DNA of 31,753 nt from a virus, in IMG/VR virus record IMGVR_UViG_3300037189_008519, positions 1 to 31,753 of that record; one strand, 5' to 3'. The translations under genes were made by a program, and so were the position numbers. The notes below the pieces were generated by a model, which was given only the letters and a program-made list of their open reading frames with translations, made no database searches and had not been told where the DNA came from. Each line of letters starts with the position of its first letter. Within the stretch, counting starts at the first letter, position 1. Of the stretch, positions 5,516 through 9,701 are shown one piece after another.

Positions 5516-5746
5516 CATTAAAGTAGTATAAATAGTAGTAGCACAAAGGTTCATAGTTTTACATCTACAAATACCCGTTCTGGGTCCTATTGTCCTTGTA
5601 AGATCCTACCTTTAATTCATAGGCCCAGCAGCTATGGTGCGTCTGCTGGAACCCGCTAATTAACGGAAAAAGGATTTTACGGTAGTAACAAGGACGGTAG
5701 GAGAATAAAATCTCCATGTAGCACAACTTACAATTTGGAGAACTAA
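5502..5746 (+). ncRNA. Long structured 5' leader before the polymerase-like gene
   Basis: No ORF is convincing in this 245-nt gap. Nested complementary segments can form one long, interrupted hairpin: 5592-5599 with 5688-5695 (8 bp, GTCCTTGT/ACAAGGAC), 5606-5610 with 5681-5685, 5612-5617 with 5658-5663, and an apical 7-bp stem 5625-5631 with 5643-5649 around an 11-nt loop. A competing pairing, TCCTACC 5604-5610 with GGTAGGA at about 5696-5702, would form a pseudoknot or alternative state. A short hairpin, GGAGA 5700-5704 with TCTCC 5711-5715, follows. The gene's own ribosome binding site (TTTGGAGAAC) starts at about 5733. A regulatory leader or replication-linked element is possible. No known riboswitch class was matched. 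Confidence 0.5.
5527..5534 (+). promoter_or_regulatory. T4-type late promoter motif TATAAATA
   Basis: An exact TATAAATA lies 11 nt downstream of the sigma70 -10 box, so the same operon could be read early from one and late from the other. Confidence 0.5.
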
Positions 5747-6994
5747 ATGAATTTGATTCAAAGCATTATTGCCTTTTGTGAAAGAACAGGCACAAAACCT
5801 AAACAAATCGCCAGTAAAAAATTAGACACAGTATTTGGTAAAAGTGCTGTAGGCAAACAATTACGCAGAGATCTAATGGTAGTAGTTAATAACTATTACA
5901 ATCCAGAAACTCATCAGTGTAAAGAATACAAAATCAATTGGCCCGTTTATCAAGATTTATTAAAAGAATATACTCAATCATTAAACCTTGATAGTTCTAC
6001 TATCAAATTAAGTACAGATGCTGTTGGGTTTGATTGTGTTAGTCAAGAACTTGAGCGTGAACATGGAGAAGAACTTACTAGTGGTAATTTTAAGTATCTA
6101 CGCAAAGGACATCGTTATTATCACGCATTACAAAATCTCCCTAAAAAAACAAGAGAACAAATATTTGCTGATCACGGTTATCGTTGGGATTATGATATAG
6201 AAGCGGCTATGCCCACACTAATCAAACAATATGCTCAACAACGCGGGTTAGTTATACCCACTCCTTATTATGATGATTTCTTGTTAAATCGAAATGATAT
6301 TCGAAATCAAATAGCACAAGACTTAGGCATTACAAAATCTCAAGCTAAAGTATTACTTACATCACTTATTAATGGAGCTAAAGTAGCACTATCAAATGGC
6401 CATAACACTTACGCAATCCACGAACTACTTGAAGATGAAACGGATCACTTAATAGCTATTTCACGCATTGTTGCTATTACTGGTTGTGATGATTGGGATA
6501 TAGCACCACATCCATGGATTAGTGGGTTTCGCGATGACATCAATACTATTTGGTTTGCTATTAAACAAGCAGGTGCCATAACTCGTAAATTCAAAGATAT
6601 TAGTTATGAGCGAGTTAACAAAGACACAGGTGAGATATATGAAATCAATTACACAAAGGAACTACCCCTGAGTAGTAAACAAAAAGCATTTCTATATCAG
6701 ATGTTAGAACATCAAGTAATGTATTCTGTTAGGAACTATTTAGAACTGAACTACATCAAGTATTATCAAATTCATGATGGAATGATGACAGACAAGCAAA
6801 TAGATACAAATGAATTGATTGATTACATCAAGAAAGAAACTGGCTTTTCTGTAAGATTTCAAGAAAGATTAATGGAACAAACATCTGATTATATACGGGG
6901 TATATGCATGCATATGCATACTCAACCAGATATCCAATCTAGCGCACTCAAAAGGTTACTGAATGAAGCGAAAAAACAAAAAATTTCGTATTAA
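5747..6994 (+). CDS. Putative palm-domain polymerase-like replication protein (HDG motif)
   Basis: The product has 415 residues and starts after TTTGGAGAAC. Three spaced motifs resemble nucleic-acid polymerase palm motifs. Motif-A-like: WDYDIEAAMPTLIKQYA, residues 147-163, with D148, D150 and P156, similar in shape to family B D-x-x-S-L-Y-P-S. Motif-B-like helix: NDIRNQIAQDLGITKSQAKV followed by LLTSLINGA, residues 183-211, with R186, K201 and N209-G210. Motif-C-like: YYQIHDGMMT, residues 339-348, with H343-D344, similar to HD in family A polymerases and T7-like RNA polymerases. A conserved-looking acidic helix (YQMLEHQVMYSVRNYL) precedes motif C, as in family A. At 415 residues it is far smaller than a usual PolA and no 3'-5' exonuclease is visible. 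It could be a compact DNA or RNA polymerase, a primase-polymerase, or an unrelated fold. The gene has its own sigma70 promoter and structured leader and overlaps the next gene. Confidence 0.5.
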   Translation: MNLIQSIIAFCERTGTKPKQIASKKLDTVFGKSAVGKQLRRDLMVVVNNYYNPETHQCKEYKINWPVYQDLLKEYTQSLNLDSSTIKLSTDAVGFDCVSQELEREHGEELTSGNFKYLRKGHRYYHALQNLPKKTREQIFADHGYRWDYDIEAAMPTLIKQYAQQRGLVIPTPYYDDFLLNRNDIRNQIAQDLGITKSQAKVLLTSLINGAKVALSNGHNTYAIHELLEDETDHLIAISRIVAITGCDDWDIAPHPWISGFRDDINTIWFAIKQAGAITRKFKDISYERVNKDTGEIYEINYTKELPLSSKQKAFLYQMLEHQVMYSVRNYLELNYIKYYQIHDGMMTDKQIDTNELIDYIKKETGFSVRFQERLMEQTSDYIRGICMHMHTQPDIQSSALKRLLNEAKKQKISY

Positions 6995-7148
6995 AATAGA
7001 TCACTCAAATCATGAGATGTTGATACTTCCGGGTAAAGGTCCACACAAAGGCCAATTAAAGTGCAAAGATTGCGACTGCCATATTCAATGGCTAAGTGCC
7101 GACGCCTATGCCGATTTAACCCGCACATTTTACCATCAGTTTCTTTAA
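6963..7148 (+). CDS. Small Cys/His putative zinc-binding protein
   Basis: This 61-residue protein has a basic N-terminus (MKRKNKKFRIKID) followed by GPHKGQLKCKDCDCHIQWL. H28, C34, C37, C39 and H40 could ligate one zinc ion. The pattern PH-K-x-x-L-x-C-x-x-C-x-x-x-I-x-W resembles small zinc-ribbon-like phage proteins of unknown role. It starts inside the last 32 bases of the polymerase-like gene, so the two are probably co-translated and may act together at DNA or RNA. Confidence 0.65.
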   Translation: MKRKNKKFRIKIDHSNHEMLILPGKGPHKGQLKCKDCDCHIQWLSADAYADLTRTFYHQFL

Positions 7149-8916: not shown

Positions 8917-9180
8917 ATGTCAAAATTACAAGCAATCAAAGGACATGTAATTGTCCAAGCAATCGAAACAGAAAATGTAACTGAATCAGGCCTGGTTATA
9001 CAAAGTGATTATCAAAAGCAAACTGAAGCTAGAATTGTCAGTGTTGGTAGTACTGTAGAAAGTATGAAAGTGGGCGACAGAGTCATAGTAGATTGGAATC
9101 GTGTGGGCAAAGTGACTTTTGAAAATGAAACTTATTTTGTCACTGGCCAAAGTAATATACTGGGCGTATTCGAAGACTAA
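8917..9180 (+). CDS. groES: GroES-like co-chaperonin (Cpn10 family)
   Basis: The 87-residue product matches the Cpn10 plan. An opening strand, IKGHVIVQAIE, is followed by a flexible mobile-loop-like region at about residues 17-35 holding the hydrophobic GLVI (25-28), which would bind the host GroEL. Then come ARIVSVG, the hallmark KVGDRVIVDW (51-60) and the closing strand NILGVFED. Phage co-chaperonins such as T4 gp31 replace host GroES so that large capsid proteins fold inside GroEL; that role is inferred here. No groEL is present. A strong AAGGAAAAGA site precedes the ATG. It is the last gene of the plus operon. Confidence 0.85.
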   Translation: MSKLQAIKGHVIVQAIETENVTESGLVIQSDYQKQTEARIVSVGSTVESMKVGDRVIVDWNRVGKVTFENETYFVTGQSNILGVFED

Positions 9181-9269: not shown

Positions 9270-9701
9270 TTACTCTAATGTAGACTTGAGCTTCCAGGCA
9301 AACTTGCTGTGTGCTCCAAGTCTGTCCGCGGCATAGTTAGCTATGTCTTGATCTGTAGCTAGTGTAGCTATATCGAATAATTCTTTGTAGAGATTCATCA
9401 TGTGCTCTTGTGCTTCTAACACAATGGCCAACATTGAATCAGCATCAAAGGCTGTGTCTTCGCCTAGTTCACTGCCTTCTAATATTTCCGCAATAGTTTC
9501 TGGAGCAAAAGCGCCAATGGTTCTAATGAATTCACCAATACGGTCTATTTGTTCTTGTGCGTCTTCATAGATTTTTTGTAGCAATTTGTGGTCGCTGGTA
9601 AAATTACGGCCAGTAATGTTGAGATGGCAACTGTGCGCTCTGTAGTATGACACAAAGTTATCGCAAAATACTTCTAACAGTTTTGATTTTAATTCTTCCA
9701 T
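9270..9701 (-). CDS. dps: Dps-family ferritin-like protein
   Basis: This 143-residue, all-helical protein aligns by eye with Dps. HLNITGRNFTSDHKLL corresponds to the HWNxxGxxFxxxHxxL signature. The ferroxidase ligands are kept as H26, H38, D53 and E57; the aspartate at the equivalent of E. coli Dps D67 is Q42, and the usual tryptophan is leucine. The end, HSKFAWKLKSTLE, matches the closing helix. Dps proteins form 12-mers that oxidise and store iron and may bind DNA. No long basic N-terminal DNA-binding tail is present, so iron or peroxide protection is the safer role. The gene lies last in the virion series, with AGGAT upstream, so it is probably expressed late. Confidence 0.85.
   Translation of the reverse strand: MEELKSKLLEVFCDNFVSYYRAHSCHLNITGRNFTSDHKLLQKIYEDAQEQIDRIGEFIRTIGAFAPETIAEILEGSELGEDTAFDADSMLAIVLEAQEHMMNLYKELFDIATLATDQDIANYAADRLGAHSKFAWKLKSTLE

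Follow-up and report, generated by a model that had tools for sequence, protein, structure and literature searches.

According to one proposal, TV-Pols represent the minimal form ancestral to DNA polymerase I and the T7-like RNA polymerases. The family was described in 2008 by Iyer, Abhiman, and Aravind as minimal family A polymerases of 400 to 600 residues that occur in mobile elements, the Sputnik virophage, and Microcystis phage Ma-LMM01, and its members were predicted to be primase-polymerases (PMC2579912). The same account treats TV-Pols as transposon genes and describes a TV-Pol element in Ma-LMM01 (PMC2579912). CcPol of SCCmec, which is included in TV-Pol, extends primers unaided (PMC7581432, PMC10061031); when paired with MP, a small SSB, it carries out de novo priming with dNTPs only, and the CcPol-MP pair is also a terminal transferase (PMC7581432). 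By 2020, CcPol was the only TV-Pol reported to be biochemically characterized (PMC7581432); CcPol itself lies near ordinary DNA polymerase I (PMC10061031).

The window analyzed here, the entire 31,753-base linear IMG/VR virus record IMGVR_UViG_3300037189_008519, carries on its plus strand, at positions 5747..6994, a reading frame of 415 open codons with an ATG start and a GGAG-type ribosome site ahead of it. A preliminary description had read the product as a compact polymerase-like protein with no exonuclease or thumb recognizable by eye and with a mixed family B and family A motif set, possibly from an unusual or undescribed polymerase group. From its relatives, profile comparisons, and fold matches, the protein is a standalone member of TV-Pol, a kind of polymerase that is known but has barely been characterized.

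Relatives and polymerase class

Pfam, NCBIfam, and PHROGs assign the 415-residue protein to no polymerase family; a PDB sequence search and NCBIfam returned nothing relevant, and a Pfam search with 16 members gave no match to PF00476 (DNA polymerase I) at E values up to 1. This phage TV-Pol escapes polymerase detection by every family library searched. A partial HU-like match covers residues 179 to 223 (PHROGs E value of 2e-6; below the cut-off in Pfam); an HU/IHF DNA-binding protein was rejected, as the match is limited to the helical fingers region of the query and appears in no other member.

A tblastn search found one distant relative (23% identity, E value of 2e-4), whose gene lies immediately upstream of repA on pW9NP1, a 7.2-kb Polaromonas plasmid. 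From the pW9NP1 protein, the search led to pH8NP1, a second plasmid, and to Desulfovibrio phage 7757, and then on to alignment-based searches; in all, iterative searching yielded about 25 remote relatives, spread over glacier plasmids, further phages, and bacterial mobile regions. They include proteins on bacterial contigs of Simplicispira, Alcaligenaceae, Rhodoferax, Nitrosospira, Pseudomonadales, SAR92, and Ignavibacteria, as well as on IMG/VR contigs, and relatives occur on mobile elements that also carry resolvases or integrases. Screening whole genomes with the HMM added a few members, with matches in 4 of 395 genomes from the phylum to which the Ignavibacteria member belongs and in 2 of 399 from the order of the Simplicispira member, two of these six being weak; the TV-Pol-like family found here is rare. 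Closest to the window protein is L082, a 413-residue protein that is likewise encoded as a standalone gene in another phage contig (24% identity, E value of 6e-22), and the two are joined in the tree with support of 100/99. Desulfovibrio phage 7757 encodes a larger TV-Pol-like protein of 767 residues (L004:4200-6503) with approximately 200 extra C-terminal residues, its gene being followed about 2 kb later by a baseplate gene, and gp222 of Erwinia phage Alexandra (L069:2164-3741), annotated as hypothetical, is a diverged relative whose motifs include WDMSSSQ and EHDG. Two diverged short family-A-like polymerases from two bacterial genomes (L028 and L031, open frames of 726 and 588 codons) have a TV-Pol-type HDG/FDG motif C and no steric-gate Glu; they were rejected as family members, as the tree groups both with DNA polymerase I (97/99), and should be seen as intermediates.

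Profile-profile comparison placed the family next to DNA polymerase I. Against bacterial and phage DNA polymerase I sequences, in a set cleaned of wrong-reading-frame rows and rows lacking the standard motif, the family profile scored 74 (P value of 5e-8, probability of 94.8%), and against the uncleaned set, it scored 60 (P value of 3.7e-6), compared with a maximum of 18.4 for 30 column-shuffled profiles and 17.4 for the reversed profile. A family profile built without the query gave the same PolA result and matched the query at a P value of 3e-16. The alignment is collinear through motif T (TGRL...LQN), motif A, the O-helix Lys with YG, the QG helix, and the HD of motif C. Seven T7-type phage RNA polymerases gave no match (P value of 0.046 or worse), and neither did the family B enzymes T4 gp43 and phi29 polymerase (P values of at least 0.27 for family profiles and 0.13 for the single sequence). 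We therefore rejected a T7-type RNA polymerase affinity, which lacks a profile signal, and likewise a family B polymerase, for which, in addition, the motif A aspartate is D150 and not D148 (DxxSLYP being expected). In this alignment, every motif is of the family A superfamily, and the mixed family B and family A set of the preliminary description is not supported.

Within that superfamily, the family HMM has exactly one match in Microcystis phage Ma-LMM01, gp030 (E value of 3.7e-16; hhalign P value of 2.6e-11 against the family), which adjoins two transposase genes, and this fits the published account (PMC2579912). Since it is the sole match in Ma-LMM01 and has transposases next to it, gp030 appears to be the TV-Pol gene listed for this phage. 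We place the window protein in TV-Pol because of the gp030 match and the virophage fold matches given below; the suggested undescribed group is thus one described earlier (PMC2579912).

Conserved motifs and predicted fold

Conservation was read from an alignment of 32 rows representing 26 distinct proteins, mostly 15 to 25% identical to the query. The three motifs noticed at first, WDYDIEAAMPT (residues 147 to 157), K201 followed by NGA (residues 209 to 211), and HDG (residues 343 to 345), do occur in polymerase order and beyond chance, and a fourth had been overlooked, a family A hairpin of the form GHRYY..LQN. This motif T-like hairpin, GHRYYHALQN (residues 121 to 130, positions 6107..6136 on the plus strand, as are all positions that follow in this section), aligns with the PolA T-GRL...LQN through its near-invariant arginine R123, which is kept in 31 of the 32 rows.

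Motif A occupies positions 6185..6217 by alignment, model, and conservation. The preliminary description had likened it to the D-x-D of family B and expected D148, D150, K201, and D344 to be invariant. D150 (positions 6194-6196), K201 (6347-6349), and D344 are indeed invariant across all rows, as are E321 and G345, whereas D148 varies (D in 14 rows, E in 11, N in 6, and S in 1); because of this variability, D150 alone is the catalytic aspartate of motif A, and similarity to family B was undetectable. Five residues after the motif A aspartate lies the steric-gate position, which is Glu in DNA polymerase I and Gly in T7-type RNA polymerases. The family has replaced the Glu in every row (His in 27, Met in 2, Gln in 2, and Val in 1); the two rows with Met are the window protein, in which M155 (positions 6209-6211) aligns with the steric-gate position, and L082.

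The fingers correspond to a tri-helical, HTH-like segment (helices 173 to 180, 182 to 193, and 197 to 209; positions 6263..6379) recognized from alignment, model, and conservation, in which K201 matches the O-helix Lys of PolA and NGA aligns with the PolA Y-G. TV-Pol fingers carry an RxxxK motif, and the residue four before K201 is Arg in none of the 32 rows. The same three lines of evidence define the acidic helix preceding motif C (residues 310 to 334, positions 6674..6748), whose Q318 and invariant E321 align with the PolA QG..A helix. Motif C, HDG (positions 6773..6781), retains H343 in 29 of 32 rows and, by model and conservation, presents D344 at the turn of the palm hairpin.

The AlphaFold2 model, built with 16 diverse sequences, has a mean pLDDT of 65, rising to about 86 to 96 in the palm and fingers core; prediction from the single sequence reached a pLDDT of 38. 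The palm is of the RRM type: strand 147-151 carries D150, and long helix 310-334 leads into a hairpin (339-342/345-348) with HD at its turn, followed by helix 354-365 and strand 371-375. D150 and D344, corresponding to the two catalytic aspartates of TV-Pols, are modeled on palm strands. Three short helices at 173 to 209 form the fingers. The N-terminal 140 residues are modeled poorly, in blocks mostly below a pLDDT of 65, and model confidence is low both for helices 65-78 and 95-112 ahead of the palm and for the R123 hairpin; TV-Pols are described as having a two-helix thumb. A PDB fold search gave weak matches (best E value of 0.028) led by mitochondrial RNA polymerases, with almost all of the top 50 being polymerases. 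The best BFVD matches (E values of 2.5e-8 to 2.4e-7, prob 1.00) are F2Y0M9, the replication protein of Zamilon virus, and a helicase/primase/polymerase from Qinghai Lake virophage, virophage replication proteins being the founding TV-Pols, and uncharacterized proteins of 400 to 547 residues from uncultured tailed phages are also among the BFVD matches. A compact palm polymerase is thus borne out by a confident palm and a fold search that returns polymerases, and neither Pfam nor PHROGs recognized a nuclease domain in the 415 residues. The fold class, the catalytic set, and the family are established.

Gene setting in the phage and upstream genes in relatives

The minus strand of the window encodes podovirus-type portal, major head, and ejection proteins. 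The polymerase gene belongs to a plus-strand cluster of small unknown genes, of which the last is GroES-like. This phage-encoded co-chaperonin gene lies at 8917-9180, and a Dps-like DNA-binding protein gene, also phage encoded, lies at 9270-9701. The G+C content of the polymerase gene is 0.336, against 0.414 for the whole window. MW202484, the closest capsid relative (portal identity of 48%), has no TV-Pol-like gene; the polymerase gene is therefore accessory in this phage lineage, and a conserved core replication gene was rejected. Overlapping its end is a 61-codon ORF with a CxxC pattern (6963..7148, plus strand), which gave no family match and is probably cotranscribed with it. Directly 5' of the polymerase gene, folding revealed a strongly folded leader RNA or DNA element (5586..5720, plus strand); for the 247-nucleotide leader, the folding z score is -3.0, with zero shuffles equally stable, and Rfam gave no match. 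A second structured intergenic element with a long stem (positions 745-905, about -59 kcal/mol on either strand) has no Rfam match either and no sequence similarity to the first.

In three proteobacterial relatives, a gene for a protein of about 125 residues lies directly upstream of the polymerase (L003:5669-6049, L013:1384-1752, and L002:6828-7205). Two of the three proteins match the phage SSB family phrog_378 (E values of 3e-5 and 6e-3), with a weak DUF669 signal in the set, and the third is their homologue; serine resolvases occur nearby. In pW9NP1, one of the three, the two genes adjoin across the start of the circular record. By sequence, these pairs are a PolA-SSB-like pairing in Betaproteobacteria, and they support a primase-polymerase acting with a single-stranded DNA-binding partner. 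To our knowledge, PolA-SSB pairing has previously been described only in Bacillota, and the upstream SSB-like gene in proteobacterial plasmids suggests that PolA-SSB primases extend beyond that phylum.

Candidate functions and comparison with known systems

Sequence and analogy point to a primase-polymerase or a gap-filling DNA polymerase as the most likely function, and with good though incomplete confidence, we favor a standalone TV-Pol, a minimal exonuclease-free polymerase of the family A superfamily acting in one of these ways. The protein would comprise an N-terminal helical part, possibly a thumb or adaptor, followed by the arginine hairpin, the palm, and HTH-type fingers, with no exonuclease domains. 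D150 and D344, positioned by conservation and alignment, would coordinate the pair of catalytic metal ions, K201 would contact the phosphates of the incoming nucleotide, and R123 would contact the template strand, these roles being those known from DNA polymerase I. DNA would be made on a single-stranded phage template by priming or short-patch gap filling, and strands started or extended without proofreading would then pass to the host replicase; we infer polymerase activity, priming, and a role in phage replication. If CcPol-MP is a guide, priming de novo would depend on an SSB-type partner or a helicase, and family searches recognized neither in the 31.8-kb window. This counts against the primase reading because known primase systems include partners; the partner may be borrowed from the host or encoded beyond the fragment. 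Alternatively, the window protein and L082 might represent a TV-Pol branch of self-sufficient primase-polymerases that use NTPs or dNTPs without SSB or helicase, the change of the Glu steric gate to Met suggesting relaxed sugar choice; we regard this as unlikely.

The lost steric gate, with Met here, mostly His in the family, and Gly in T7 RNA polymerase, would also suit a small RNA polymerase derived from the family A superfamily, either a transcriptase or an RNA-priming enzyme, as proposed for divPolA2. Motif C reads HDG and not HDE, and mitochondrial RNA polymerases provide the best PDB matches. However, the match to DNA polymerase I is strong where the T7-type enzymes show none, a promoter-recognition domain is absent, and the studied CcPol-MP primes from dNTPs only (PMC7581432), which makes an RNA polymerase unlikely. 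A polymerase for repair, template-independent end processing, or conflict (defense or antidefense) instead of replication is rather improbable: the neighbors are small unknown and morphogenesis-type genes such as the GroES-like gene and not a replication module, the low G+C content suggests late acquisition, MW202484 lacks the gene, and CcPol-MP has terminal transferase activity, but no defense genes were seen nearby, and the family has ties to mobile elements that replicate, being adjacent to RepA on a plasmid and fused to helicases in virophages (PMC2579912). That TV-Pols are transposon genes, with the Ma-LMM01 copy adjoining transposase genes (PMC2579912), and that G+C drops below the surroundings would fit cargo carried into the phage by a transposable element and possibly disused by the phage. 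Yet transposase, resolvase, and flanking repeats are absent next to the gene, the flanks share no 10-mer, the ORF and its catalytic residues are intact, and L082 occupies a like standalone position; an insertion around the gene was rejected for want of flanking repeats, and the cargo explanation is very improbable.

Among the known polymerase families tested, DNA polymerase I (PF00476) is the best profile match, with collinear palm and fingers motifs, whereas the window protein has no exonuclease domains, has HDG in place of HDE, and lacks the Glu steric gate. The divPolA2 proteins of barbaviruses and vibriophages (PMC11348598) are likewise phage encoded, of about 430 residues, and composed of a family A palm with an unusual N-terminal domain, a GR..Y and LQN-like hairpin, and no exonuclease; hhalign against the representative AUR84708 gave no convincing match (P values of 0.006 to 0.06 over about 42 to 52 columns), and identity with divPolA2 was rejected in favor of a separate or very distant lineage. 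In Flavobacterium phage immuto (divPolA1), the family profile had no match.

With TV-Pols, the window protein shares standalone size, a minimal family A core, the hairpin Arg, two palm Asp residues, a Lys in fingers modeled as HTH-like, the lack of a recognizable nuclease domain, and a distribution over mobile elements and viruses. It departs from them in the missing Arg of RxxxK, absent from all relatives found, in Met where His is common after motif A, and in having neither a fused or adjacent D5-like helicase nor a recombinase neighbor, none of the D5-like helicase, transposase, or resolvase genes being recognizable in the 31.8-kb window. Because standalone forms exist, the helicase or recombinase link is a usual association and not a strict TV-Pol requirement. 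CcPol-MP and the PolA-SSB primases likewise involve a truncated family A polymerase on mobile elements (PMC7581432, PMC10061031); their adjacent OB-fold SSB gene and helicase have no recognized counterpart in the window, whereas three relatives have the SSB-like gene directly upstream. CcPol is near housekeeping PolA and retains part of the exonuclease domain, whereas the window protein is far more diverged, and this 415-residue phage version, with its relatives and invariant residues, offers concrete targets for studying priming, polymerization, and sugar discrimination by a minimal core.
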